Below, in pieces: positions 4,103-21,431 of a stretch of 25,319 nucleotides of DNA (positions are counted from its first letter, which is position 1; each line of letters begins with the position of its first letter). Under the pieces are notes generated by a model that was not told the DNA's origin, searched no databases, and was given only the letters and a program-made list of their open reading frames with translations. This stretch comes from a virus, in the IMG/VR virus record IMGVR_UViG_3300034072_000208, positions 1 to 25,319 of that record; one strand, written 5' to 3'. The translations under genes and the position numbers were made by a program.

Positions 4103-5577
4103 AGCTCTTTGATTTTTTCCGTAGAAAGACCGAGCAGAAGATTGCAAAGCCTCTGTTGCGAAATTACAACGGTGCGGCGGGCGGTCGTTTGCTTTCTGAT
4201 TTTGTCATCAACAACCAGACTGCTGATTCTGCGCTGCAATACAGCCTGCCAACCTTACGCAATCGCTCGCGGGATCTTGAGCGCAACAACGAATATGCTC
4301 GAAAGTATCTGACGCTATTGCAGACTAATGTGGTTGGTGATGCAGGCTTTAATTTGCAAGTAAAAGCGCGAACCACCAACGGCAGCCTGGACGGTCCTGG
4401 CAACACCATGATTGAAAATGCCTGGACTCGTTGGAGTCGTGTTGGCAATTGCACTGTCGACAAGAAACTGTCCTTTCTCGATTGCCAGCGACTTGCGGTG
4501 CGAATGCTTGCTCGTGATGGTGAGTGCTTTGTGCAGCTGCTCAACGGTCCAAGATACCAGGACGGTTTTGCAATCAAGTTGATGGAAGCTGATTGGATCG
4601 ACGATCAAAAGAATGAGATTCTCAGCAATGGCAATCAGATTCGGATGGGCATCGAGATTGATGAGATGCAGTCGGTGGTTGCTTACTGGGTGCTGACGCA
4701 GCATCCTGGTGATACGTCTTTCAGGACCAATGTGGCTCGAAAGCATATTCGAGTGCCTGCTGACAGGATCTTGCATCTTTATATGCCCAATCGCTTAGGA
4801 GTTCGTGGCGAACCTTGGATGGCTCCAGTGATTGACTCGCTGAAGATGCTCAGAGGTTACAGAGAAGCTGAGCTCGTGGCTGCGAGGGTTGCTGCAAGCA
4901 AAATGGGAGTGATTACGACCCCGACAGGCACTGAATACACAGGCGATGGCACAGAAAACAGCCACACGCCAATCATGAATGCTGATCCTGGGACATTCCA
5001 CCAGTTGCCTGCTGGCTGGGACATCAAGATGTTCGACCCAACGCACCCGACAAGTGCTTTCGGTGATTTTGAGAAAGCAGTGCTGCGAGGCATTGCTAGC
5101 GGTCTGAATGTGGCTTATACGAGCCTGTCAAATGATCTGGAGGCGACAAGCTACTCAAGCATCAGAGCTGGGACGCTTGAAGATCGAGACAATTATCGAG
5201 TGCTGCAATCATTCATCATCGAGCACTTTGTCGATCCGATCTATCGTCAGTGGCTTGCCTCTGCGATGCTTAACAATTCATTCCCATTGCCTCCAACCAG
5301 GTTCGACAAGTTTGCAGATGCAACGGTCTGGCGAGGTCGCGGCTGGAATTGGGTTGATCCGTTAAAAGAGATCAACGCTGCGGTGGTTGGTCTCAACAAT
5401 GGCATTTTGTCTATGCAAGACGTGGCAGCTCAATACGGCAGAGACGTAGAAGAAACCTTCTCGGCTATTCAGCGCGACAAGGAGCTTGCAGCACAATACG
5501 GGCTGAGCATGAGTTTTGAGCCCTTTGGTGAGAAGATGCCTGCTCCTGCAATGGTTGACGAAAATGCCGATTCCTAA
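4099..5577 (+). CDS. Portal protein, lambda gpB family (492 aa)
   Basis: The portal forms the dodecameric ring at one capsid vertex through which DNA enters and to which the tail joins. The N-terminus MKLFDFFRRK and SRDLERNNEYARKYLTLLQ (about 53-71), followed by VVGDAGFNLQ, match the lambda-type portal pattern. ARDGECFVQLL (about 137-147) and GLNVAYTSLSNDLEATSYSS (from residue 335) are further family hallmarks. The length is normal. It is translationally coupled to the preceding gene through ATGA. The downstream protease-capsid gene starts inside its last 14 bases. Membership of the lambda portal family is a recognition from sequence pattern, not an alignment. Confidence 0.93.
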   Translation: MKLFDFFRRKTEQKIAKPLLRNYNGAAGGRLLSDFVINNQTADSALQYSLPTLRNRSRDLERNNEYARKYLTLLQTNVVGDAGFNLQVKARTTNGSLDGPGNTMIENAWTRWSRVGNCTVDKKLSFLDCQRLAVRMLARDGECFVQLLNGPRYQDGFAIKLMEADWIDDQKNEILSNGNQIRMGIEIDEMQSVVAYWVLTQHPGDTSFRTNVARKHIRVPADRILHLYMPNRLGVRGEPWMAPVIDSLKMLRGYREAELVAARVAASKMGVITTPTGTEYTGDGTENSHTPIMNADPGTFHQLPAGWDIKMFDPTHPTSAFGDFEKAVLRGIASGLNVAYTSLSNDLEATSYSSIRAGTLEDRDNYRVLQSFIIEHFVDPIYRQWLASAMLNNSFPLPPTRFDKFADATVWRGRGWNWVDPLKEINAAVVGLNNGILSMQDVAAQYGRDVEETFSAIQRDKELAAQYGLSMSFEPFGEKMPAPAMVDENADS

Positions 5578-8023
5578 TGAAAGCATGGTTGAAGAGGCGC
5601 AGCGCGGACTGGCCTGGCGGCGAGAATTCGGACGTGGTGGGACTGCTGTTGGGATTGCTCGCGCTCGCGACATTTCTAATGGTGTTGATCTTCCGATGGC
5701 TACTATCCGACGAATGAAGGCTTATTTTGACCGGCACGAGGTCGACAAAGAGGCTCAAGGATTTAGACCAGGCGAAAATGGATACCCCAGCAATGGGAGA
5801 ATCGCTTGGGCTCTGTGGGGCGGCGATCCTGGGCAGACCTGGGCAAATCGTCTTGTCGCGCAAGACAATGAAGAGGAAAGAAGCATGATTGAGGAAAGAC
5901 CTTATCCAAACGAACATGCAGCCAGGCTGACTGATCCGGCGCAATACGATGGCTTTGCTCGTGTGAATGACCAGTTCGGACCAGGCATTGATGCGATCTT
6001 TGGGATCAAGGACGGTGAGAGCGAATTGCAAGCAATCAGGTTTGATGCAGATCGTTTCACTGCTGATGAGGCAAGAGAATGGCTTGCAGAGCATGACTAT
6101 GACCCGATAGAATTCGAGGAGGCGACAGGAGAGGACGCAAGCGGCGATACTTCTGACGACAATGACGAGGATGAAATGGCTGCTGAAGAGCGCAAAAGCA
6201 TTGCGAAGCTGAATACCAGGGCGATGACCTGGGAAGCATCTATCGACCAAAAAGCTCGCACTGCGCTGATCGCTGTCTCCTCTGAGGCTCCTGTCGAGCG
6301 ATATTTTGGGACTGAGATTCTCAATCACGAGGCTCGGTCTATTGATCTGACATTTATGAATTCTGGTCGGGCTCCTCTTTTGCTCGATCATGACGCGACC
6401 AAGCAGATTGGGGTCGTGGAGTCTGTGACACTTGATGAGTCAACCCGTCGACTACGGGCAAAGGTTCGCTTCGGAAGAGGTGAGCTGGCAAGTGAGGTGT
6501 TTCAGGATGTTTCTGACGGTATCCGCAGCAACATTTCTGTCGGTTACGAGATCCGAAAAATGGATGAGGTAACCAAAGGTGAATTCCGAGTCATGGACTG
6601 GTCACCTCTTGAAATTTCAATCGTGAGCATTCCTGCTGACCAGACAGTCGGCGTGGGTCGGTCGAAAGAAATGGATTCTTCTCAACCTGTCATTTTCCAA
6701 AAGGAAGAAATCATGTCTGATGTAAATCTCGATCAGATTCGTTCCGAAGCAGCAGCAAAAGCTCGTCAGGACGCATCTGCAATTCTCGCTCTTGCAGCTC
6801 GCCACAATCGCAGCGATCTCGGTCGCAAAGCTATTGAGGAAGGCACAAGCATTGAGGCTTTCCGTGGTCAGTTGCTGGATGCAATCGGCAATGACAAACC
6901 TCTCGACACTCGTGCGACTGACATTGGTGCATCGCGTCATGAGCAAAAGGAATACTCCTTAGCTCGTGCTCTTCGCGCTATGACCACCAATGATTGGAGG
7001 CAAGCAGGTTTCGAGCGTGAAGTCAGCGACACCATTGCTCGCAGTATTGGTCGTGACGCAAAGGGCATCTTTGTTCCTGATTTCGTATGGGGCAAGCGTT
7101 CTGGTCCTATGTCGACTGCTGCAACAGGTGGCTCTGCTTCTGAGAATGTCTCTGACAAGCTCGTGCCAACGATTCAGGCTGGTGACATGTTCATCGAGGC
7201 TCTTCGCAATCGCATGGTGATGGCTGATCTCGGTGTCACGTTCATGAATGGTCTTGTAGGCAAGATCCAGATCCCCAAGTTCTCTGCTGGTGCTAATGCA
7301 GCATTTGTGGAAGAGCTCGCAGCGGTGTCTGACCAGTCTCCGACCGATGCAGCTGTGACGTTGCAGCCTCGTACGCTTGGTGCTTATGTAGACATTTCGC
7401 GTCTGCTTATGATGACCTCGGTTCCTGCTGTCGATCAGATCGTTCGCAACGACCTGCTTGCAAGCATGGCAGAGCGCATTGAGTATTACGCAATCAACGG
7501 CTCTGGCTCTAGCGGTCAGCCCACTGGCTTGCTGAATCTGTCGGGTATCAACGATATTGACATCTCTGCTGGCACTGATGTTGATTCGCTGACCTGGGCT
7601 GACATCGTTGCGCTCGTGAAGGCTGTGGAAGAGGACAACGGCGTGGTGAATCCTGCTGCTCTTGGCTGGCTGACCCATCCTGCTGTTAAGGCAAAGCTCG
7701 CATCGACTGCAAAAGTGTCAAGCACTGATTCGGTCATGATCTTGGCTGAGCCCTGGAATTCGTTGTATGGCTACAAGTTTGCAGCCACAGCAGCAGTTCC
7801 AACCAACCTCGATCCAGGCGATGCAGGCAATGACGCTTCGGCACTCATCTTCGGTGACTTCTCACAGTTGATGGTTGGAACCTGGGGCGCACCTGAGATC
7901 CTCGTCGATCCTTATACTGGCGGCACTGCTGGTACGGTTCGTATCATCGTGATGCAGGAAGTTGATGTTGCAGCTCGCAACGCAGTCAGCTTCGCGCTAA
8001 CGAACGAAGTCTCGGTTGCCTGA
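5564..8023 (+). CDS. Prohead protease-major capsid protein fusion, HK97-like (819 aa)
   Basis: One uninterrupted frame encodes maturation protease and capsid. Residues 1-105 form an N-terminal module (GTAVGIARARDISNG, then FRPGENGYPSNGRIAWALWG) seen on phage proteases. A charged region and acidic linker follow. The HK97-type prohead protease lies at about 215-370, with probable catalytic His276 in LLLDHDA and Ser325 in NISVGYE. The HK97-fold major capsid protein begins near residue 384 with a helical delta-like segment, then SKLVPTIQAGDMFIEAL, a P-domain and GSGSSGQPTGLL. The start is ATG 5564, overlapping the portal by 14 bases; the frame is open back to 5516. Internal ATGs at 5885 and 6713 each follow a good Shine-Dalgarno sequence, so separate protease and capsid chains may also be made. 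Confidence 0.92.
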   Translation: MPIPNESMVEEAQRGLAWRREFGRGGTAVGIARARDISNGVDLPMATIRRMKAYFDRHEVDKEAQGFRPGENGYPSNGRIAWALWGGDPGQTWANRLVAQDNEEERSMIEERPYPNEHAARLTDPAQYDGFARVNDQFGPGIDAIFGIKDGESELQAIRFDADRFTADEAREWLAEHDYDPIEFEEATGEDASGDTSDDNDEDEMAAEERKSIAKLNTRAMTWEASIDQKARTALIAVSSEAPVERYFGTEILNHEARSIDLTFMNSGRAPLLLDHDATKQIGVVESVTLDESTRRLRAKVRFGRGELASEVFQDVSDGIRSNISVGYEIRKMDEVTKGEFRVMDWSPLEISIVSIPADQTVGVGRSKEMDSSQPVIFQKEEIMSDVNLDQIRSEAAAKARQDASAILALAARHNRSDLGRKAIEEGTSIEAFRGQLLDAIGNDKPLDTRATDIGASRHEQKEYSLARALRAMTTNDWRQAGFEREVSDTIARSIGRDAKGIFVPDFVWGKRSGPMSTAATGGSASENVSDKLVPTIQAGDMFIEALRNRMVMADLGVTFMNGLVGKIQIPKFSAGANAAFVEELAAVSDQSPTDAAVTLQPRTLGAYVDISRLLMMTSVPAVDQIVRNDLLASMAERIEYYAINGSGSSGQPTGLLNLSGINDIDISAGTDVDSLTWADIVALVKAVEEDNGVVNPAALGWLTHPAVKAKLASTAKVSSTDSVMILAEPWNSLYGYKFAATAAVPTNLDPGDAGNDASALIFGDFSQLMVGTWGAPEILVDPYTGGTAGTVRIIVMQEVDVAARNAVSFALTNEVSVA
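5872..5887 (+). promoter_or_regulatory. Possible internal ribosome binding site and start in the protease-capsid gene
   Basis: AGAGGAAAG at 5872-5880 lies 4 bases before an in-frame ATG at 5885. The resulting product would begin MIEERPYPNEH and would lack the first module of the fusion, leaving a more standard prohead protease N-terminus. Whether it is used is unknown. Confidence 0.4.
6701..6715 (+). promoter_or_regulatory. Probable internal ribosome binding site and start for free major capsid protein
   Basis: AAGGAAG at 6701-6707 with a 5-base spacer precedes an in-frame ATG at 6713. It sits exactly at the junction between the protease domain and the capsid delta-like region. A product starting here would be 436 residues (MSDVNLDQIRSEAAAKARQD and on). 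That is a normal size for an HK97-type capsid precursor. It would supply capsid subunits in excess over protease. Confidence 0.6.
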
Positions 8024-12266: not shown

Positions 12267-12892
12267 GTCGCGGTCTTACAGCTGGCGCACTTGCTCAGAT
12301 CGCAGCGACCGAGCTGCAACCGATTCTTTTATTTCAAGCTGAGTTTCAGTCGGGCACGATTTATATCTGGAATGGTATTGGCGATCTAAGTTGGAATTCG
12401 CAGACCTGGACAGGTGTTGGCACTTTTATGAGCTTTTCTGACATTGAGGAAAGCACAGAAGTGAAGGCAGTTGGTGCGACCATTACGCTCAACGGCATTC
12501 CTAGCGATTTAGTGTCAACAGCTTTATCTGATGTCCGACAAAACAAGCCTGGCAAGCTCTATCTTGGCTTTTTATCTTCGGGCTCTATCGTTTCTGATCC
12601 TTATCTCATCTTCGCTGGCAGGCTGGATGTTGTTCATCTCGATGAGTCATCAGAAGGATCAACAATCTCTTTGCAATACGAATCGAGGCTGATTGATCTT
12701 TCTAGGCCCAGAGTTTTTCGATATACCCCAGAAGATCAAGAGCGAGAGTTTGCAGGCGATTTAGGCATGGAGTTTGTCCCAGCATTGCAAGACAAAAAGG
12801 TGACCTGGGGACGTGTAAGCAATGCTGTTCCATCAGGAGCTGGGTCAGGTGGCGCACCTCCTGTCGATGAACAACAAACAACAGGGATGTAA
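12263..12892 (+). CDS. Tail tip hub-associated protein, DUF2163/gpL-like (209 aa)
   Basis: It begins at an ATGA overlap with the preceding gene and ends one base into the J-like gene, so it is part of a coupled tail-tip set. The sequence LLFQAEFQSGTIYIWNGIGD, TFMSFSDIEESTEVKAVGAT and ITLNGIP near 65-90 are beta strands of a tail hub-type fold. PYLIFAGRLDVVHLDE (about 113-128) and RPRVFRYTPEDQEREF (about 149-164) follow; the latter resembles the motif SRxRRYTxEDQ found in DUF2163-type and lambda L-like proteins. A role in the tail tip between tape measure and J protein is inferred from position and this motif. Confidence 0.75.
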   Translation: MSRGLTAGALAQIAATELQPILLFQAEFQSGTIYIWNGIGDLSWNSQTWTGVGTFMSFSDIEESTEVKAVGATITLNGIPSDLVSTALSDVRQNKPGKLYLGFLSSGSIVSDPYLIFAGRLDVVHLDESSEGSTISLQYESRLIDLSRPRVFRYTPEDQEREFAGDLGMEFVPALQDKKVTWGRVSNAVPSGAGSGGAPPVDEQQTTGM

Positions 12893-15800
12893 TGGGCTTT
12901 CTTGAAATCATCTTAGCAATTGCGAGCATGGCTGCTGGAGAGGCGGCTGTTAGTTATTTCGCGATAACTTCTGCTTGGCAAGCTGCTGCGGTTCGCTTTG
13001 CTGTCGCTCTTGCGATCTCGACTGCATCTAGAAACTTAGTTACTCGCAAATCATTCCAAAGCGAAGCTGAGGGCAGGATCATCACGACTAAGGAGCCTTT
13101 GGCGGCCGCTAAAGTGATTTATGGTCGGGTGAGAGTCGGCGGCACGATTGTCTACATGGAGACCACTAGCAGCTCCAACGAATATTTGCACATGGTGATC
13201 GTCCTTGCTGGTCACGAGGTTCACGCGATTGATGACATCTACTTTGATGATGAGCTCGTTCCTTTAGACGGATCTGGCAATGCAACTGGCACTTTTGCTG
13301 ATCTTGTAAGAATCAAGAAAGCTCTCGGCACTGATGCACAAACAGCCTTTAGCGATCTGGTGTCTGAGTCTGATTCGCTTTGGACAAGCAATCATCGACT
13401 GAGAGGTCGCGCTGCAATCTATGTGAGGCTCAAATACAACCAGGACAAGTTTCCCAACGGTGTCCCTAATATCACAGCCATTGTCAGAGGCAAGAAGGTT
13501 TACGACCCAAGGACCACGACGACTGCTTACAGCACAAATCCTGCTCTGATCGTTGCTGATTACCTTTGCAACACCAGATATGGACTTGGCGCGACTTATG
13601 CCACAGAGATCGACGAAACAGCTCTGACAGCTGCTGCAAACATTTGCGACCAGGATGTCACGCTCGATGCTGGCGGCACTGAAGATCGCTACACAGCAAA
13701 CGGATCATTTGACACGACTGAAGTGCCAGAGAAGGTGCTTGCTGAGCTTTGCAGCGCAATGGCAGGTCATGTCACCTATGTTGGCGGCAAATGGTCGATT
13801 CTTGCAGGAGCCTATAGATCACCATCAATCACGCTTGACGAAGATGACTTGCGAGCAGGCTTTAAGGTGCAAACCTTGGTTTCTCGCAGAGATCAATTCA
13901 ACTCAGTCAAAGGTGTTTTTAGCTCACCAGACAACCTTTGGCAGCCAACGGATTTCCCGTCCTATTCTTCTGCTACTTTTGTATCAGAGGACAATAGCGA
14001 GACGGTTTACAGAGATATTTCGCTCCCCTATACGACCAGTGCAGCCACAGCGCAGCGTTTAGCGAAGATTGAGCTTTACAAGGCTCGTGAGCAGCTGTCG
14101 ATGACTTTGCCTTGCAAGCTCACTGCTTATGGGGTCCAAGTTGGTGATGTGGTCAATGTAACCAATACCAGGATGGGCTGGTCTGCCAAGGCTTTCGAGG
14201 TTGTAGGCACAAAACTTGTTTTTGATCTCGATGCTGGCTTTGGTGTTGATCTTGATCTTAGAGAAACGAATTCAAGCATCTACTCTTGGGATGAAGCAAC
14301 CGAAGAGCAAGAGTTTGTGCAGGCTCCGAATACCAACTTGCCAAACCCAAGATCTGTTCCTGCTCCTACAGCTCTGACGCTCACTGAGGTCAAAGTTCTT
14401 CTCAATGATGGAACCCTTGCCAATGGCATTCGAGTTAGTTGGACAGCTCCGAGCGATTATTTTGTCAAGGAATATGAGGTCCAATACATCAGGACTGGTG
14501 GGGCGATCGACTATGGGCTCATCAGCCAGGCTGCAACTTCCTCACAGTCATTTGGCGACATCACTGCAAGCGCAACCGCTACGTTGAATTATGGGTCGAT
14601 CTCAGATGTCATCATTTCTGGCGAGCCTGAATTCAACAGCGGCACGACAACAACAACGCAGCTGACGATCGCTCCAGTCATCCAGGCTGTCGAATATACG
14701 GTCAAGGTCCGATCGGTTTCTCATTTGGCAGTGAGATCTGCCTTTGTGCAAGACACGATCACCACAGGCGGCGATACAACGGCTCCTGCTGCACCATCAC
14801 TTATCACGGCAACCGGCAAGATCAGGTCAATTGTTTTGAATTGGGAAAACCCATCTGATCTTGATTTTGATTCGGTGGAAGTATTTAGAAACACGACCAA
14901 CAGCGTTAATTCTGCGACCAAGGTTGCTCAGATTGCTGCTGACAATTGGACCGACACAAATCTTGATAGTGATGTCACGCGCTATTACTGGCTGCGATCG
15001 GTCGACATGTCTGGCAATCGCTCGGCATTCAGCTCTTCAGTCAATGCAACGACTCAAACGATTGTTTCTGCTGATTTCAGTGCTGAGGTGCTTAATCTCT
15101 TTGCTGAGGCTGGGGCTTATGGGATTGAGCCTGTCGCATCATTGCCAGCAAGTGGAGATTTTGTCGGGCAGATCAAGTTTGATACGACTGCGGTTGCTCT
15201 CTATCGTTGGACGGGATCAGCCTGGGACGATGACATTTTTAGCATCACGACAGGATCTGTTACCGCAAGTGCTTTTGCTGCTGGCATCGAACCTATTTCA
15301 GTCGTCAGCTCTTTGCCAAGCGCATCAGGTTACACAGGCCCGAAGGTTGTTTTTCTGACCACAGATGGCAAGCTCTATCGTTATGCTTCTGGGGCGTGGA
15401 CAACTGCGGTGCTCACCTCGGATCTTTCTGGGACGCTTGCATCTTCGCAATTCAGCAACAGCCTGAGGCCTGTCGAGGTTGTTTCGTCATTACCAAGCAG
15501 CTCCAACTTCCAGGGGCGCACAGTTTTTCTCACGACCGACAACAAGATATATCGGCATGATGGGACAAACTGGACTGCTGCGGTCCCAGCTTCAGATCTA
15601 TCAGGCACTGTTTCTGATGCACAGATCGCTGGCCTGGCGGCTGCGAAGATCACCGGCACACTAACCAATTCCCAGATCGCTGATGTCGCAGCTGCAAAGA
15701 TCACTGGATCTATTGTCGGAACCCAGATCACAGATGGCGCAATCTCAACAGCAAAGCTCGCAGCAGGATCGGTGACTACTGCCAAAGTTGCAGCTGGAGC

Positions 15801-17535
15801 AATTTCAGCAGATGAGATTGCAGCCAACGCAATCACAGCGGTCAAGATTTCTTCGGGTGCAGTGGAAACGGCAAAGATTGCAGCAGGAGCGATCGAGGCT
15901 AGCAAGATTGCATCCAGTGCGATCACGACCGACAAACTTGCAGCCAATGCGGTGACGACCGAAAAGATTACAAGCAATGCGATCACCACAGGGCTTCTGG
16001 CTGCGGGGGCTGTGACTTCGGACATTCTTGCAAGCAACTCGATCATCGCTGGCAAGATTGCTGCTGGGGCTATCAACTCATCGAGCTTGTTTGTAAGTGG
16101 GGTGATTACCTCTTCTCATATCCAGGCAGGCACGATACAAGGCGACAGGATTGCTGCTAATACGATCACTGGTGGTCTTATTGCTGCAAGCGGGATTATC
16201 ACCTCGGCTGCACAGATCAATGATGCGGTGGTGACGAATGCAAAAGTAACCAGCTTGTATTCGAGCGATTACAACGGACCTATTCCACCATCGAGCAGCA
16301 ACTTTGGGACTGCTGGTTGGTATCTCGACAAGTCGGGCAGTTTCTACGGCAATTCGGTCTATCTGCGAGGTCAGCTTGTTAGCGGCACTTCAGGAGCGCA
16401 GCGAGTAGAAATCAACAAGACACTCGCAAACAAGCTAGCGGTCTACAACAGCTCAAACACGCTTATCGGGGCCATAGGTGGCTCTGGAGTCTTTGGCGAT
16501 GCAGTCATTCAGTCTTATCCGCAAATCGTCAGCGGATCGTTTCAGGGTGCTTATATCGAGACTCCGAGTTATACGGGCTCGACGAATTATGGGTATGGTC
16601 TTTATGCAAGGACAGCCGATGGAGAGGTTGATTCCTATGTTAATTACTGGGACAGCTCTATCGGTTTAAGAGCTGCGGTTGCAGGCACTATTAGTGTTGG
16701 CGCAGCTCTCAGATCTGGAGTGCATGGCTATCGTGACTCTAGCTATTCCGCTGGTGGTCGTTTTTATGATGGCAGCGCTGGAACCCTTGTCACGCTTGCT
16801 GATAGCAGTGGCTATGCCTTAAACATTCGATCTGGGCAACTAAGGTATGGATCAACCACCATACAAGCTCCAAGCGGATCATCAGGCGATTTCTTGCGTG
16901 GCAATGGTTCTTATAGTGCCTTATCAGCCTCAGACATTCCGAATATTTCCGGCAATAAGATTACATCTGGTTTGGTTGACTGGGGTTATGTCGCAGGCTT
17001 TAAGAACGGATCGAGTCAAGTCAGAGGCATTGCAGGCACTGGATCAACAGCGACTTTACAAGCGTTTTTAGGATCAGAGACTACCGACACGACCTCTGGG
17101 AACATGGTTTATTACACCGAGGCTGGGGGCTACTTCGGTGGGGTCTATATAAACCAACGTGGAACAACAGCGACCTGGAGCGCACTTTATTCAGACGCTC
17201 GAATGAAGGATGTGCTTGGTCAAATACCGATTGCAGACCCTTTAGAAACGCTGAAAAAAATTGGCAATCCTGTGATCTGGAAATGGAACCATGAGGCATC
17301 TAGCGAGGTCTGGGGCTATACAGCACAGCAGATCGGACAAGGGCTTCCTGATGCTGTGATAGAGGCTCCAAGAACACCGAGAGGCGACTATCAGCTCGTG
17401 CCTGGCACAGAAGAACGGGTGCTGACTTTTGATAACACCAAGTTTCAGATGCTTAAGGACATGGCTTTGATTTCGCTTATTGAGAAGATCGAGATGCTTG
17501 AGGCTAAGATCGCTGCGCTGGAGGCTAGATCATGA
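12892..17535 (+). CDS. J-like tail tip / host specificity protein with C-terminal S74 chaperone (1547 aa)
   Basis: Large central tail-tip protein. Two hydrophobic stretches lie at about 1-45. Residues 60-450 carry tip-attachment (J-like) sequence, including KEPLAAAKVIYGRVRVGGTI, YNTNPALIVADYL-like strands and LDEDDLRAGFKVQTLVSRRD. Two fibronectin-III-like domains follow at about 485-615 and 629-725. Three 50-residue repeats lie at about 744-906 and a long run of ten-residue repeats at about 914-1115. A beta-rich shaft precedes YSDARMKDVLG (1433-1443), the start of a Peptidase_S74 intramolecular chaperone ending in a coiled coil. In related endosialidase-type chaperones the cut falls just before this Ser (1434), which would release about 114 residues. 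Its tip likely contacts the host; cleavage is inferred. Confidence 0.88.
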   Translation: MGFLEIILAIASMAAGEAAVSYFAITSAWQAAAVRFAVALAISTASRNLVTRKSFQSEAEGRIITTKEPLAAAKVIYGRVRVGGTIVYMETTSSSNEYLHMVIVLAGHEVHAIDDIYFDDELVPLDGSGNATGTFADLVRIKKALGTDAQTAFSDLVSESDSLWTSNHRLRGRAAIYVRLKYNQDKFPNGVPNITAIVRGKKVYDPRTTTTAYSTNPALIVADYLCNTRYGLGATYATEIDETALTAAANICDQDVTLDAGGTEDRYTANGSFDTTEVPEKVLAELCSAMAGHVTYVGGKWSILAGAYRSPSITLDEDDLRAGFKVQTLVSRRDQFNSVKGVFSSPDNLWQPTDFPSYSSATFVSEDNSETVYRDISLPYTTSAATAQRLAKIELYKAREQLSMTLPCKLTAYGVQVGDVVNVTNTRMGWSAKAFEVVGTKLVFDLDAGFGVDLDLRETNSSIYSWDEATEEQEFVQAPNTNLPNPRSVPAPTALTLTEVKVLLNDGTLANGIRVSWTAPSDYFVKEYEVQYIRTGGAIDYGLISQAATSSQSFGDITASATATLNYGSISDVIISGEPEFNSGTTTTTQLTIAPVIQAVEYTVKVRSVSHLAVRSAFVQDTITTGGDTTAPAAPSLITATGKIRSIVLNWENPSDLDFDSVEVFRNTTNSVNSATKVAQIAADNWTDTNLDSDVTRYYWLRSVDMSGNRSAFSSSVNATTQTIVSADFSAEVLNLFAEAGAYGIEPVASLPASGDFVGQIKFDTTAVALYRWTGSAWDDDIFSITTGSVTASAFAAGIEPISVVSSLPSASGYTGPKVVFLTTDGKLYRYASGAWTTAVLTSDLSGTLASSQFSNSLRPVEVVSSLPSSSNFQGRTVFLTTDNKIYRHDGTNWTAAVPASDLSGTVSDAQIAGLAAAKITGTLTNSQIADVAAAKITGSIVGTQITDGAISTAKLAAGSVTTAKVAAGAISADEIAANAITAVKISSGAVETAKIAAGAIEASKIASSAITTDKLAANAVTTEKITSNAITTGLLAAGAVTSDILASNSIIAGKIAAGAINSSSLFVSGVITSSHIQAGTIQGDRIAANTITGGLIAASGIITSAAQINDAVVTNAKVTSLYSSDYNGPIPPSSSNFGTAGWYLDKSGSFYGNSVYLRGQLVSGTSGAQRVEINKTLANKLAVYNSSNTLIGAIGGSGVFGDAVIQSYPQIVSGSFQGAYIETPSYTGSTNYGYGLYARTADGEVDSYVNYWDSSIGLRAAVAGTISVGAALRSGVHGYRDSSYSAGGRFYDGSAGTLVTLADSSGYALNIRSGQLRYGSTTIQAPSGSSGDFLRGNGSYSALSASDIPNISGNKITSGLVDWGYVAGFKNGSSQVRGIAGTGSTATLQAFLGSETTDTTSGNMVYYTEAGGYFGGVYINQRGTTATWSALYSDARMKDVLGQIPIADPLETLKKIGNPVIWKWNHEASSEVWGYTAQQIGQGLPDAVIEAPRTPRGDYQLVPGTEERVLTFDNTKFQMLKDMALISLIEKIEMLEAKIAALEARS
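15121..15610 (+). repeat. Three tandem 160-175-base coding repeats in the J-like gene
   Basis: Units begin near 15121, 15283 and 15460. Each codes for a roughly 50-residue module: a proline-containing start (GIEPV, GIEPI, SLRPV), then SSLPS, a VxFxTT strand, and a YR-x-W ending. The second and third share VVSSLPS, VFLTTD, KxYR and the closing SDLSGT. They resemble small beta modules repeated in tail fibres and probably form part of the shaft. The first unit is the most divergent. Confidence 0.7.
15631..16240 (+). repeat. Array of about 30-base coding repeats (decapeptide shaft) in the J-like gene
   Basis: The encoded protein repeats a ten-residue pattern of the form AI-x-x-x-KIAAGA (for example AISTAKLAAGSV, AVETAKIAAGAI, AITTDKLAANAV). 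About 20 imperfect units follow each other without spacers. The pattern suits a triple beta-helix or needle-like fibre shaft. DNA identity between units is moderate and concentrated in the codons for Lys-Ile-Ala-Ala. The repeats are coding and are not a CRISPR array. Confidence 0.8.
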
Positions 17536-17822: not shown

Positions 17823-18551
17823 ATGACACAAGCAGTACAACTCAGAAAAGGCACGACCTCCGAACATTCGACCTTTACGGGTTTGCAGGCAGAGGCAACT
17901 GTCGACACGACTAAGAAAACCATCGTAGTCCATGATGGGTCGACTGCTGGCGGCATTCCTTTATCCAGAGAGGATCTGAGCAATGCGAATCCTAGCAATC
18001 TGACTACGATTGTTGGGGCTGATACGGCATCTGGCGATCTCTTTGTTGTTTATGACGTTTCAGCGAGCGCGTTTAAGAAGATCACCAGGGCTGAGCTGAA
18101 CAATGCAATGGAGCAAGATGCACTAGCTTCTGTTGCGATCACTGGCGGCAGCATCAACGGCACGACGATTGGCGCAAGCACTGCAAGCACAGGAGCTTTC
18201 ACCACCTTATCTGCCTCAAGCACAGTTAGCGGTAATGGATTCAGCACTTATCTAGCCAGCCCACCAACTATTGGCGGCACTAGTCCAGGACTTATAACTG
18301 GGACAACAATAACAGCGACAAATCAATTTTCTGGGCCACATAATGGATCTGTTGGCGCAACCTCGCCGTCGAGCGGAATATTTACCTCATTGGCATCTTT
18401 AAGTGTTTTACAAAATGTCCAAACAATTGCATCATCATCATCCATTTCAGCTGGCAACAATGGGCTTTCAGTTGGGCCTGTGACTATTTCTGGTGGGGCT
18501 GTTTTTACAGTTCCAAGTGCAAGTATTTGGAAAATTTTAGAAGGAGTTTGA
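17823..18551 (+). CDS. Tail fibre protein with Mtd-type N-terminal domain (242 aa)
   Basis: Residues 1-50 (QLRKGTTSEHSTFTGLQAE, then VDTTKKTIVVHDGSTAGGIP) closely resemble, from memory, the N-terminal beta-prism domain of the BPP-1 major tropism determinant and other phage fibres. The remainder is Ser/Thr/Gly/Ala rich with beta-helix-like repeats (GGSINGTTIGASTASTGAFT, then TTLSASSTVSG). It ends in a short hydrophobic strand. The protein lacks a lectin fold and a variable repeat. It lies directly before the DGR target gene, and its last codons contain that gene's ribosome binding site (AAGGAG 18541-18546). I infer a fibre shaft or adaptor that may carry the variable receptor-binding protein. 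Confidence 0.75.
   Translation: MTQAVQLRKGTTSEHSTFTGLQAEATVDTTKKTIVVHDGSTAGGIPLSREDLSNANPSNLTTIVGADTASGDLFVVYDVSASAFKKITRAELNNAMEQDALASVAITGGSINGTTIGASTASTGAFTTLSASSTVSGNGFSTYLASPPTIGGTSPGLITGTTITATNQFSGPHNGSVGATSPSSGIFTSLASLSVLQNVQTIASSSSISAGNNGLSVGPVTISGGAVFTVPSASIWKILEGV
18541..18546 (+). promoter_or_regulatory. Strong ribosome binding site of the DGR target gene
   Basis: AAGGAG lies 6 bases before the ATG at 18553, inside the end of the upstream fibre gene. It fixes the target start. Confidence 0.75.
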
Positions 18552-18552
18552 C

Positions 18553-19563
18553 ATGGCCTATGGCAAAGTGCTCGCAAATGCGACATCTGCAACCGGCGTA
18601 TTTCGCAAAGCTGATCCCACAATCGTCGCATGGACCAAAACTGGCGCATTTACAGCTACAACAGCGACTGAATTAACGATTGAGGTAAATGGTGAATCGC
18701 AAATCATTGCGTCTGGAACCTCGATCACGATGCCAGGTTCGGCCACGACAGGAACAGATTATGCAATCTGGGCAAAAACTGATGGCACATTGCAAGCAAC
18801 AACCGATCACACATCTGCTCCGGCGACTGGTGCTAGAAAAGTCGGTGGGTTTCATTACGCGCCAGGCGGCAACGCAACAGGGACATCTGGCGGTAATACC
18901 ACAGCAGGAATTAACGAATATTCTTTTTGGGACTTGAAATTCAGGCCAGCTTGTAAAGATCCTCGCGGCATGACGCTAGTGGCTGGATGTTTTTGGTCTG
19001 ATATCTATCTTTGCGGGGTCGATCACTATACAAACGGGACGAGCAAATATAACGTCACGATCGCAGACGGTTCATCGCTGCCTAAGATTAGTGCAGCTTT
19101 TGGGGGCACAGGATCTAACTCTTATGCTGGCGGCACTTGGTTTGCTTTCAATGAAATTATGCGCGGAGCTGGTAAGCGACTGCCAAGATATACAGAGTTT
19201 GCTGCTTTAGCCTATGGCACGACCGAGGCTTCTTCGCTCGGATCTGATCCGACTACAACAGGGGTCAGCAGCGGCACGTACACAAGCAAATGGGGCGTGA
19301 TGCAATCCAGTGGAGTTATGTGGCAGTGGTCAGATGACTTTATTGCAAGTGGCGATGGGACTGGCGGCTGGCAAACTGGACTTACAGAAACCAGAGGCAA
19401 TATTTATACTTACAATTCCTCGGCACGCGCTGGGCTCTTGGGCGGCGGCTGGGCCGACGGGTCGGGTTCCGGTTCTCGTTGCTCGAACTGGACCTACGAT
19501 CCATCGCTCTCGGCCAGCCCCATCGGGGCTCGCGGCGTGTGTGACCACCTGATTCTTGATTAA
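18553..19563 (+). CDS. DGR target: variable C-type-lectin-like receptor-binding protein (336 aa)
   Basis: This is the protein whose 3' end is diversified by the retroelement. Residues 1-105 form a Thr/Ala-rich beta domain. From about 120 the sequence (EYSFWDLKFRPACKDPRGM, then FWSDIYLCGVDHYTNGTSKY) resembles the lectin fold of Mtd-type and FGE-sulfatase-type DGR targets. SKWGVMQSSGVMWQWSDDF (about 250-268) is the conserved core before the variable region. Codons 291-331 form the variable repeat; the invariant GARGVCD (325-331) follows, with the five residues HLILD at the end. Thirteen codons differ from the template, always at adenines. It likely binds the host receptor at the tail tip; that role is inferred from Mtd and from position. 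Confidence 0.93.
   Translation: MAYGKVLANATSATGVFRKADPTIVAWTKTGAFTATTATELTIEVNGESQIIASGTSITMPGSATTGTDYAIWAKTDGTLQATTDHTSAPATGARKVGGFHYAPGGNATGTSGGNTTAGINEYSFWDLKFRPACKDPRGMTLVAGCFWSDIYLCGVDHYTNGTSKYNVTIADGSSLPKISAAFGGTGSNSYAGGTWFAFNEIMRGAGKRLPRYTEFAALAYGTTEASSLGSDPTTTGVSSGTYTSKWGVMQSSGVMWQWSDDFIASGDGTGGWQTGLTETRGNIYTYNSSARAGLLGGGWADGSGSGSRCSNWTYDPSLSASPIGARGVCDHLILD
19423..19545 (+). repeat. DGR variable repeat (VR)
   Basis: Aligned without gaps to the template repeat at an offset of exactly 534 bases. 103 of 123 positions are identical and 20 differ. Every difference is at a TR adenine: 9 to G, 9 to C, 2 to T. The first five positions correspond to AAAAA in TR, so the left boundary could equally be 19428. 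The right boundary is set by a non-adenine mismatch (G in TR, C in VR) at 19546. The changes fall in 13 of 41 codons of the target. Confidence 0.97.
19521..19545 (+). other. Candidate IMH (initiation of mutagenic homology) at the 3' end of VR
   Basis: This 25-base stretch is identical in VR and TR (TR 20055-20079) and is GC-rich, with no adenine in 19524-19543. In BPP-1 such a segment is where cDNA integration is thought to begin, with a slightly different IMH* on the TR side. The first mismatch, C against G, directly follows it. Confidence 0.75.
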
Positions 19564-19577
19564 GTGGCGAAAGCCAC
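19564..19577 (+). promoter_or_regulatory. DGR target-site hairpin just downstream of VR
   Basis: GTGGC (19564-19568), loop GAAA, and GCCAC (19573-19577) form a perfect 5-bp stem with a four-base loop. It starts directly after the target stop codon and 18 bases after the VR end. In BPP-1, a GC-rich hairpin/cruciform with a short loop just downstream of VR is needed for target recognition. There is no following T-run, so a terminator is unlikely. Confidence 0.7.
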
Positions 19578-19583
19578 GTTGTC

Positions 19584-19958
19584 ATGGAACCAATCTCAGA
19601 GGCGACACAATGTTACGATCAGATGGCTATTATCGAAAAGTACGAAAGGGTCATAGCCTATCTATATCCAATTGCTCAATCGATGCCTCGTCGACATGGG
19701 ATAGCCAGAGACAAGTTTTTGAATTGTCTTTTTTCGGTTCCAGATCTTTTATATCAAGCGGGGAAATCAAATCAGATAAGCAAGATATATGCTGCAGATG
19801 CTGGATTGGCTCATCTGCGGTTTTGGATGCGATTTCTTTTTACGATCAAAAGCATGACGCAACATCAGCTGCAAACGGCTCAGGCTGTTTTGGCAGAAGT
19901 TGGGGCGATGCTTGGAGGTTGGATCAAAAGAAGAAGAGCGCAGGGGCATACTGGGTAA
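19584..19958 (+). CDS. avd: Accessory variability determinant, Avd (124 aa)
   Basis: Small basic helical DGR accessory protein. In BPP-1, Avd forms a barrel-like pentamer that binds the reverse transcriptase and the template RNA and is required for cDNA synthesis. The sequence begins MEPISEATQCYDQMAIIEKY and has PRRHGIARDKFLNCLF, QAGKSNQISKIYAADAGLAH and LRFWMRFLF, then a last helix AQAVLAEVGAMLGGWIKRRR. All are family hallmarks, and by memory it closely matches BPP-1 Avd through the first residues, which supports the 19584 start over the in-frame ATG at 19623. No strong ribosome binding site is seen. The stop TAA (19956-19958) touches the start of the template repeat. Confidence 0.92.
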   Translation: MEPISEATQCYDQMAIIEKYERVIAYLYPIAQSMPRRHGIARDKFLNCLFSVPDLLYQAGKSNQISKIYAADAGLAHLRFWMRFLFTIKSMTQHQLQTAQAVLAEVGAMLGGWIKRRRAQGHTG

Positions 19959-20079
19959 AAACGCTGGGATCTTGGGCGGCAACTGGAACAACGGGTCGGA
20001 TTCCGGTTCTCGTTGCTCGAACTGGAACAACGATCCATCGAACTCGAACAACAACATCGGGGCTCGCGGCGTGTGTGAC
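19957..20079 (+). repeat. DGR template repeat (TR)
   Basis: The invariant donor for the variable repeat. It contains 31 adenines, mostly in 11 AAC codons of the target frame. Randomising both As of an AAC codon gives NNC, which encodes 15 amino acids and never a stop. Read in the target frame it gives KNAGILGGNWNNGSDSGSRC and so on, with Asn at the positions that vary in VR. TR starts at the Avd stop and is followed by a 145-base spacer before the reverse transcriptase, as in BPP-1. Confidence 0.97.
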
Positions 20080-20097
20080 GACATCGATTTATCGCTT

Positions 20098-20111
20098 CGT
20101 AAAGGCTTACG
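20098..20111 (+). other. Hairpin downstream of TR at the same offset as the VR hairpin
   Basis: CGTAA (20098-20102), loop AGGC, and TTACG (20107-20111) form a perfect 5-bp stem with a four-base loop. It begins 18 bases after the TR end, the same as the VR hairpin after the VR end. The stem sequences are unrelated. It may be part of template RNA folding or coincidence. Confidence 0.5.
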
Positions 20112-20224
20112 CATTACGAGCAGGCCTGTCAAAATGTGGTCAGCCAGCAGTGTCCTCCTTCGGGGAATACATCAAGAGGTCTGGCATAACGTCAAGTAGG
20201 CAATCCAAAGACGGGGCTAGCACA

Positions 20225-21217
20225 ATGCCAAAACGACACAGGCATTTGATTGAAAAAATTGCGGACATCCAGAATTTGAGATCTGCATATATCAATACGG
20301 CACGATCCAAACGAATGACTCATGGATATTTAGAGTTTAAGGAATACGCCGAATCAAATTTATCATTGATTCAATCAGAGCTTTTGGATGGTGGCTATAA
20401 GATTGGTCCTTATAGAGAGTTTATTATTTATGAGCCTAAGGCGCGATTGATTTCTGCTCTTGATTTCAAAGACAGGTTGGTGCAACACGCACTTTGTAAT
20501 GTTATTGGACCGATCTTCGAAAAAGCAATGCTTCCGCAAACCTTTGCATGTCGTGTTGGACTTGGCACACATGCAGGAGTCAAATATTTGCAAGCGGAAA
20601 TGCGTCGAATTGATGCAACGCACTTTTTGAAAACTGATTTCTCAAAATATTTCCCATCCATAGATCATAAAATCTTGCATGAGATGATTGATCGTAAAAT
20701 TGACTGCGAAAAGACCCTGAAGATTCTAAGAGAGATTATTCCAATCAATGGAAAGGGCATCCCGATTGGAAGTTTAACTTCGCAGCTTTTTGCAAATGTT
20801 TATGGCGGTTCTGTTGATCGTTATATTCACTTTGAATTAAAACATCGAGCATGGGCAAGATACATGGATGATATTGTGATTCTTGGGCATGACGAAAAAG
20901 AGCTGAGAAGTTCGTTTTCTAAGATACAAATCTTTTCAAAAGAAAAGTTACTATTAGCAATAAGCAAGTGGCAATCTGGGCCTATCAGCAGAGGCATCAA
21001 CTTTCTTGGGTATCGTATCTGGCCCACGCACAAGCTCTTGAGGAAAGATTCTGTAATAAGAGCAAAACAAAAGATTTCAAAGTTTGTTCGTCTTGGCGAT
21101 CAAGACTCATTAAGAAAATTCATTGCTTCATGGTCTGGTCATGCTCGTTGGGCAGACACGCACAACCTTTTTAATTGGATGGAGAATCGACATGGCATCG
21201 TTTGTCATCAACAGTAG
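20225..21217 (+). CDS. DGR reverse transcriptase (330 aa)
   Basis: Copies the template RNA into cDNA with errors at adenines. MPKRHRHLIEK opens the protein. HFLKTDFSKYFPSID (133-147) carries catalytic Asp138. GIPIGSLTSQLFANVYGG (178-195) has IGxxxSQ in place of the QGxxxSP of retroviral and group II intron enzymes, a diagnostic DGR change. ARYMDDIVIL (211-220) carries the catalytic Asp215 and Asp216. GINFLGYRIWP and SWSGHARWADTHNLF follow in the thumb region. By memory it is very close to the BPP-1 enzyme in length and sequence. The start is ATG with GGGG at 20213-20216; the frame is also open upstream through TR and avd. It overlaps the next gene by 26 bases. Confidence 0.96.
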   Translation: MPKRHRHLIEKIADIQNLRSAYINTARSKRMTHGYLEFKEYAESNLSLIQSELLDGGYKIGPYREFIIYEPKARLISALDFKDRLVQHALCNVIGPIFEKAMLPQTFACRVGLGTHAGVKYLQAEMRRIDATHFLKTDFSKYFPSIDHKILHEMIDRKIDCEKTLKILREIIPINGKGIPIGSLTSQLFANVYGGSVDRYIHFELKHRAWARYMDDIVILGHDEKELRSSFSKIQIFSKEKLLLAISKWQSGPISRGINFLGYRIWPTHKLLRKDSVIRAKQKISKFVRLGDQDSLRKFIASWSGHARWADTHNLFNWMENRHGIVCHQQ

Positions 21218-21431
21218 GGCTGATCTTGATGCAATTGCAGGGACGGTAGAACATCAACGATTTATGCAGGCTTTGCGCGGGTCAATGATTCGCAAGATCA
21301 ATGTTCAGACGTATCCTGATGGATACAACCAGCCTGGCTATAGTGGACCGACATTGGAACCAGTTTGGCAAGATCAGGAAGATCTATCTACGATCGAGCA
21401 ATTTGGTTTTACCAAAGAAGATTTTGAGTGA
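21192..21431 (+). CDS. Small hypothetical protein after the reverse transcriptase (79 aa)
   Basis: Starts inside the last 26 bases of the reverse transcriptase gene, with a GGAG-containing leader about 9 bases upstream. It has a helical N-terminus (SRADLDAIAGTVEHQRFMQA) and then a Pro/Tyr/Gly segment (YPDGYNQPGYSGPTLEPVW). The acidic end is STIEQFGFTKEDFE. I do not recognise a family. The C-terminal pattern occurs in small proteins near tail fibre or lysis genes, so a tail or assembly accessory role is possible but not shown. A start at 21123 is possible in frame but has no ribosome binding site. Confidence 0.65.
   Translation: MASFVINSRADLDAIAGTVEHQRFMQALRGSMIRKINVQTYPDGYNQPGYSGPTLEPVWQDQEDLSTIEQFGFTKEDFE

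Follow-up and report, generated by a model that had tools for sequence, protein, structure and literature searches.

A complete diversity-generating retroelement of the BPP-1 type in an uncultivated phage whose backbone is lambda-like, and the apparent loss of its cassette in related phages

Does a phage that carries a reverse transcriptase (RT) behind its tail genes possess a working system for rewriting its own tip protein, and is that system a fixed part of the phage? We addressed this question for IMG/VR record IMGVR_UViG_3300034072_000208, one strand of 25,319 bases, referred to below as the window (the whole stretch of DNA analysed). An earlier note on this DNA, made from the letters alone, had proposed a complete diversity-generating retroelement (DGR) in the order target gene, variable repeat (VR), hairpin, avd, template repeat (TR), spacer and RT. 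We put the probability at roughly 95% that the window holds a complete BPP-1-type DGR, that it rewrites the Mtd tip of an uncultivated phage built on a lambda-like backbone, and that the cassette is a removable module lost repeatedly in relatives. All the proposed parts were recovered in this order, as follows.

18553..19563, plus strand: mtd-like DGR target gene, 336 aa, variable, probably receptor-binding (PDB 1yu4, BPP-1 Mtd, PF21916)
19428..19548, plus strand: VR, a 121-bp repeat of TR, hypervariable between siblings
19524..19558, plus strand: zone resembling the initiation of mutagenic homing (IMH) site, GC-rich 14 bp plus 21 bp, TR counterpart 20058-20092 (VR/TR and BPP-1 alignments; limits inferred from BPP-1)
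19564..19577, plus strand: hairpin or cruciform GTGGC-GAAA-GCCAC, 5-bp stem and GAAA loop, 3' of the mtd stop (sequence)
19584..19958, plus strand: avd, 124 aa (PF22296 bAvd, E 2.8e-28; NCBIfam DivGenRetAVD, 113.9 bits, cut-off 80; PHROG Avd)
19962..20082, plus strand: TR, a 121-bp repeat of VR, with 1/121 differences in the sibling contig L084
20094..20221, plus strand: structured DGR spacer RNA (Rfam RF03022 Phage_DGR, 89.7 bits, gathering threshold 50)
20225..21217, plus strand: DGR RT, 330 aa, with YMDD and IGSLTSQ (BPP-1 Brt, PDB 8ub7, PF00078)

VR lies within the last 136 bases of mtd and aligned with TR over 121 bp, with 17 mismatches (A to C 7, A to G 7, A to T 2, G to C 1). Sixteen of them fall at TR adenines, which make up 27 of the 121 TR positions (hypergeometric P 5.6e-12). 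The two repeats had been described as gap-free and as differing only at adenines; they are gap-free, and the second statement holds for all differences except one, a G/C pair at 20080/19546. Over 73 records, the window and BPP-1 included, 1020 of 1151 mismatches (neutral scoring) were located at TR adenines, which account for 1969 of 8833 positions. These adenine mismatches comprised 480 A to G, 315 A to T and 214 A to C changes and 11 read as N; the smallest adenine share was 9/21, in L049 (L numbers denote the loci compared). When a TR codon was counted as mutable if it had an adenine at codon position 1 or 2, 17 of 41 aligned codons were mutable in the window and 13 in BPP-1, 12 being common to both. 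A second VR was rejected, as a search of both strands of the window gave none.

The target protein matched solved Mtd chains at E 2e-99 (PDB 1yu4) and weaker, was 53% identical to BPP-1 Mtd, and matched PF21916 (mtd_2nd) at E 1.5e-17. Mtd has a C-type-lectin fold. Homology to the solved chains, together with the position of VR at the mtd 3' end, supports the C-type-lectin-like C-terminus predicted earlier for the target. A GRNA-loop hairpin behind mtd passed a strict test in 60 of 74 RT-positive records (14 failed; the commonest stem was 6 bp), in 7 of 27 RT-negative records and in 18 of 1940 random windows. In the spacer RNA, 25 pairs were predicted over 71 sequences, and 17 of the 25 showed compensatory changes.

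The RT contains YMDD and, as IGSLTSQ, the [ILV]GxxxSQ motif that is a mark of DGR RTs, both as read before; its start is probably the ATG at 20225, within an open reading frame (ORF) that itself opens at 19556. It is hardly credible that this is a retron, group II, defence or abortive-infection RT lying beside a repeat made by chance or duplication. Such an identity could draw on the generic RT (142 bits) and RT_UG17 (120 bits) models of PADLOC and on the NCBIfam group II model (101 bits), all of which match the protein. However, the NCBIfam cut-offs for group II and retron RTs are 300 and 235 bits, the retron model gave 49 bits, and all six NCBIfam RT models stayed below cut-off. The closest solved RT was that of BPP-1 (8ub7, E 4.5e-147), about 130 orders of magnitude ahead of the runner-up, a group II RT (E 2.4e-16), and identity to BPP-1 Brt was 64.3%. 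On the 8ub7 lead and the NCBIfam and PADLOC comparison we rejected a retron, group II or defence RT, and these similarity scores contradict the grouping with retrons or group II introns that the earlier note had named as evidence against a DGR. Avd, the RF03022 RNA and the repeat statistics also argue for a DGR.

In BPP-1, the DGR is arranged as mtd-avd-TR-brt and is followed by bbp4; its gene order, VR/TR logic, IMH zone, GAAA hairpin, Avd and RF03022 RNA are as in the window. Identities between the two are 64% for RT, 53% for Mtd and 67% for Bbp4, and 12 of the 13 mutable BPP-1 TR codons are common to both. The earlier assignment to the "BPP-1 type" is supported by RT, Mtd and Avd homology and by the RF03022 spacer; judged by sequence, the window DGR is a further member of this known type. 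BPP-1 is a podovirus, whereas the window backbone is lambda-like, with a gpA-type terminase, a lambda-family portal, a lambda-type tape measure and a J-like tail tip. The N-terminal domain Mtd_N is fused to the Mtd body in BPP-1 but is encoded by a separate upstream gene in the window. In the 21-bp part of the IMH-like zone, VR and TR are less alike in the window (8/21 differences) than in BPP-1 (5/21), the 14-bp part is not purely GC, and the hairpin stem also differs from that of BPP-1.

The reaction steps and their effect on host binding can be proposed by analogy with BPP-1. The avd-TR-spacer-RT transcript would fold, forming the RF03022 RNA; a role of the spacer in priming has been described (PMC12875486). 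RT and Avd would then reverse-transcribe TR with errors at template adenines, and the resulting cDNA would replace VR at the 3' end of mtd, with help from the IMH and from the GAAA-loop hairpin. In this way the C-type-lectin-like Mtd tip could change at up to about 17 codons, while TR stays intact. By the same analogy, the window phage would bind its receptor through this tip and could switch tropism.

The earlier note had looked for support in a VR that varies at TR adenines beside a constant TR, and sibling contigs gave this result. The siblings were L084 (IMGVR 3300010354_000753), L083 (3300005805_001277), L002/L082 (3300036770_002247) and L085 (3300010370_000359), the last of which stops inside VR. 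Between L084 and the window, there were 0/875 differences in mtd before VR and 20/121 in VR, 19 of them at TR adenines; TR differed at 1/121, avd at 1/378, the spacer at 0/142 and RT at 1/993 positions. The single TR change (A20020T) recurs at the corresponding VR position of L084 itself, which is what templating predicts. L083 differed from the window at 17/121 VR positions (16 at TR adenines) and at 15/875 positions of mtd before VR. Because L083 has no TR, the constancy of TR is read from L084 (1/121). What is directly shown for the window is the anatomy, the homology and, between siblings, a VR that diverges specifically at adenines while TR and the remainder of the block hardly change.

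Several observations weigh against this reading. The VR variation is drawn from a few assembled contigs rather than from reads, and L002/L082, identical to the window over 12.7 kb, has the same VR. The sole non-adenine mismatch between VR and TR lies inside the 21-bp zone equivalent to IMH/IMH*. A GRNA-loop hairpin matters for BPP-1 homing, and the passages of PMC3240598 on its stem give 8-10 bp as the best length; the 5-bp stem of the window is shorter than this optimum. The window and L084 also differ elsewhere: overall identity is 96.3% over 10 kb, bins upstream of 18500 show up to 22/500 differences (about 4%), and those from 21500 on show 54/499, 87/500 and 66/215 (11-31%). VR is therefore a hot spot only inside the 18.5-21.5 kb block. 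Between 18500 and 21500, next to no differences were found outside VR. A near-identical block between diverged flanks looks like a recent exchange, and the block from mtd to its downstream neighbour may have been exchanged recently between siblings by recombination; the VR difference within it is then the more striking.

That the DGR is intact on paper but inactive, its VR/TR differences being old, seems very improbable to us. The VR shared by the identical window and L002, the absence of VR differences (0/140) in L058/L154, a pair nearly identical across the whole locus, and the short hairpin stem are what such a state would produce. But L084, with 0/875 before VR, has changed 20 of 121 VR positions, 19 at TR adenines; VR has changed far more than the rest of the common block; and the avd and RT frames are open. 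The window DGR is apparently active in nature, and broad natural activity of DGRs has already been reported (PMC8144416).

Other groups were compared in the same way, the window being represented there, and in the Mtd tree described below, by L002. Among RT-positive groups at least 98% identical before VR, VR differences per 140 positions were 13 in L060/L122, 22 in L027/L029 and 15-17 in L017/L018/L021; L094/L095 showed 15/140, and the L094 contig stops before the RT. The RT-less groups L118-L121, L086/L087 and L134/L136 showed 0/140. We rejected their frozen VR as a clean control, since the same groups are identical or nearly so elsewhere too and the value therefore says little. The RT-less pair L117/L124 (96.5% before VR) had 18/140 VR differences.

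The cassette sits between mtd and a small gene that overlaps the RT end.

21192..21431, plus strand: Bbp4-family gene, 79 aa, conserved mtd neighbour and candidate Mtd assembly chaperone (66.7% identical to BPP-1 Bbp4; loci survey; two long members)

This identity is slightly above that of RT and above that of Mtd; Bbp4 of BPP-1 is without an annotated function. We surveyed 156 locus records after removal of duplicates (the window, its identical copy L002, BPP-1 and L083 counted), and omission of five records cut inside mtd left 151. In 97 of these, the 79-aa gene lies at most 150 nt from the stop of an RT or RT remnant. In 20, it lies at most 300 nt behind mtd without any RT; near-copies included, these represent about 15 different viruses, and the S-CBS1 and S-CBS3 homologues among the phages compared are weak (E about 7e-5). 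The other 34 are made up of 17 DGR RTs without an Mtd match at the locus (gene not found), ten whose contig stops before the gene, L100, L117 and L146, where it lies 430-610 nt behind mtd, L110, where it precedes an mtd, and L097, L105 and P12026, in which it was not found. An independent scan gave 181 relatives; among the best 80, 65 follow an RT or remnant, 13 follow mtd and two begin at a contig edge, several of these contigs overlapping the survey. Because it stands directly behind mtd in RT-less loci, in both the survey and the scan, the 79-aa gene is linked to mtd and not to the DGR. If its product served the DGR as an accessory factor instead of being an Mtd partner, this would explain why, in almost every RT-positive locus with room for it, the gene overlaps the RT stop or lies against it. 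This role is nevertheless unlikely, given that the gene stays directly behind mtd in the 20 records without RT and that none was found next to the 17 DGR RTs whose loci, as fetched, gave no Mtd match.

We consider it about even odds that this partner of Mtd is a tail-fibre assembly chaperone, as two natural fusions hint. Long forms (at least 120 aa) make up 41 of 116 family members. In L143, the long member ends in PF16778 Phage_tail_APC (E 5e-24) with tail-fibre-assembly PHROGs, and that of L106 contains DUF4376 (E 5e-18). Of the other six among eight scanned long members, five matched only PHROGs without known function (one with an additional chance-level Pfam hit), and L010 gave no match. 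Like the PF16778-type chaperones and related PHROGs, the 79-aa gene is small and directly behind a fibre gene; unlike them, its own domain had no Pfam, NCBIfam or fold match. Because only the fused C-terminal domains match and L143 is a distant member (E 3e-7), the chaperone role is one that we infer. The window protein had no family match in Pfam, NCBIfam or PHROG, and weak matches to PHROG 30757 (no function given) occurred in 7 of 95 members. Its fold model was confident (predicted local distance difference test 94.3), but we dropped the fold as a functional clue after comparison with PDB and BFVD gave no significant match. A search on Bbp4 of Bordetella phage found no paper within the literature collection covered.

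Is the cassette a fixed part of such loci? In the sibling L083, the junction 7416/7417 (window 19968/21068) removes TR and most of RT. The hairpin, avd, 7 nt of TR and the final 49 RT codons remain, and mtd and the neighbour gene are kept, so that the cassette would have been lost within the window's own population. An assembly error in L083 is quite possible, though we lean against it: this is a single contig without reads, and VR/TR repeats trouble assemblers, but no bases are shared at the junction, VR is not fused to TR there, both flanks match the window closely (left 12/500, 11 of these in VR; right 2/467), and the same kind of deletion occurs in other phages.

Remains differ among those phages. 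Both L117 and L100 keep the hairpin and avd, followed by RT C-terminal codons, and L138 keeps RT C-terminal codons. L124, a close relative of L117, has the same RT side with hairpin and avd also gone, as if a second deletion had followed an L117-like one. In L105, behind the hairpin, the start of avd runs in frame into the RT end, and L097 has a hairpin and a truncated avd. L148 has a hairpin remnant by likeness to RT-positive relatives that fails the strict test. The cultured Synechococcus phages S-CBS1 and S-CBS3 and Marinomonas phage P12026 have an Mtd homologue as in the window. S-CBS1 and S-CBS3 retain a GACA hairpin together with a homologue of the neighbour gene that is divergent and scores weakly; P12026 keeps an avd remnant and, unlike the window, no neighbour gene was found there. 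Also unlike the window, none of the three has an RT in its whole record, and scans of the S-CBS3 and P12026 loci found no spacer RNA. The scarred loci correspond to about eight events, with L117/L124/L138 counted as one and S-CBS1/S-CBS3 as one.

In 20 records from Mtd phages lacking an intact RT at the locus, these three included, a PF00078 search found no RT (0/20); most RT-less records may be fragments, and the three cultured phages are described as complete. RF03022 was found in 0/13 RT-less loci scanned, with BPP-1 as a positive control. In the Mtd tree (102 rows, 76 RT-positive and 26 RT-negative), RT presence changed 17 times, at least 10 of them forced by starred branches. This was a quick tree with long branches flagged (P12026 and S-CBS1/S-CBS3 among them); L083 and L105 entered it as RT-negative, and L119-L121, eight contigs whose state was unclear and one row containing a stop were omitted.

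These data bear on whether RT-less Mtd loci ever had a DGR. We judge it improbable that they never did and that the cassette was gained. No clear scar is visible in 15 of the 20 RT-less records with mtd directly beside the neighbour gene, and tree change counts cannot separate gain from loss. Nevertheless, pieces of avd, RT C-terminus or hairpin persist in L083, L117, L124, L138, L100, L105, L097, P12026, L148 and S-CBS1/S-CBS3, and RT-positive and RT-negative rows are interleaved in the tree. Loss of the cassette by deletion, several times in the wider family and with Mtd and usually the 79-aa partner kept, is well supported. A literature search for DGR loss found no paper, and we make no claim that such loss is unreported; the parts of PMC6199706 on remnant prophages do not discuss cassette loss.

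The cassette would accordingly be pictured as a removable module between mtd and the Bbp4-family gene, possibly encoding Mtd's assembly chaperone; related phages would have shed it several times and kept a presumably frozen Mtd. We further propose, tentatively and at a little short of even odds, that Mtd and its Bbp4-family chaperone are the basic receptor-binding unit and that the mutator (avd-TR-RNA-RT) is an optional insert repeatedly shed. Populations, the window's included, would be polymorphic for hypermutation, and deletion would switch lineages from "keep searching" to "locked" binding, at times with TR and RT going first and avd and hairpin in a second step. With the window, the best-studied DGR type is now seen on a lambda-like phage backbone, where it shows signs of natural activity. 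Comparison of the locus across relatives adds more, through the pattern of a removable cassette and through the gene linked to mtd: deletion scars make the worth of keeping hypermutation countable in phage populations, and Bbp4, an uncharacterised gene, gains a testable function. The opposite kind of decay, with mtd gone and RT kept, is possibly seen in L153 (Pandoraea nosoerga), where RT and the neighbour gene are present, the spacer aligns in its second half only, and no mtd was found in the fetched locus (10 kb upstream).

Two further features precede mtd.

12892..17535, plus strand: J-like central tail fibre/tip protein with a weak S74-type chaperone domain near its C-terminus (PHROG, NCBIfam, Peptidase_S74)
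17823..18551, plus strand: fibre gene, 242 aa, whose first 50 aa are an Mtd_N domain (Pfam PF18454, E 2.4e-14)

The J-like protein hit the PHROG families tail fiber protein (E 1e-91) and central tail fiber J (E 4e-87); its match to NCBIfam lambda TipJ (E 4e-13) was far below cut-off and that to Peptidase_S74 (E 8e-4) slightly under it. Behind its gene come a 93-aa gene, the Mtd_N fibre gene, mtd, hairpin, avd, TR, spacer, RT and the 79-aa gene, followed by two small ORFs, a weak holin match (PHROG, E 0.0012) and an endolysin. The label "tail/lysis operon" is fair because of the J-like tail protein upstream and the holin match and endolysin downstream.

The Mtd_N gene stops one base 5' of mtd; mtd is preceded by a separate AGGAG-type ribosome site. 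Target proteins that include the 50-aa Mtd_N were seen in BPP-1, L009, L031, L032, L063 and L145; as a separate gene, Mtd_N was seen only in the window's own lineage. It is absent from the target protein in the window and in most relatives, and for the latter reason we did not take it as defining the BPP-1 type. In relatives, 10 to 837 residues precede the Mtd body. Compared with the window, L083 has an almost unchanged mtd and a largely different gene upstream of it. The Mtd body is likely a tip module set on exchangeable anchors.

Megablast of window bases 1-25000 against 50,697 phage records gave no match. The RT is AT-rich (GC 0.39, against 0.52 for mtd and 0.49 for the window), which is compatible with a foreign module. 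The nearest genome-borne RTs, which we set aside as a pointer to the host, came from an Akkermansiaceae metagenome-assembled genome (MAG; 71%), a Gallionellales MAG (66%), Pandoraea (64%) and Castellaniella (56%). Among the structural genes, an 835-aa ORF at 5516-8023 combines prohead protease and major capsid domains.

Unusual arrangements of mtd were also observed. L118-L121 have three tandem mtd copies and then one neighbour gene (two copies are visible in L120's stretch), and the 16-kb L118 record contains no RT. In L110 (5744-7368), the 79-aa gene lies 5' of two mtd genes in tandem, of which the second runs off the contig, and no RT was seen at this locus. In L146, a 179-aa ORF (5372-5911, minus strand) fills the slot between mtd and the neighbour gene; to judge by its motif, it resembles an HNH homing endonuclease. 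In the T7 records LR745707 and LR745708, a stretch of gene 17 is Mtd-like and presumably engineered.

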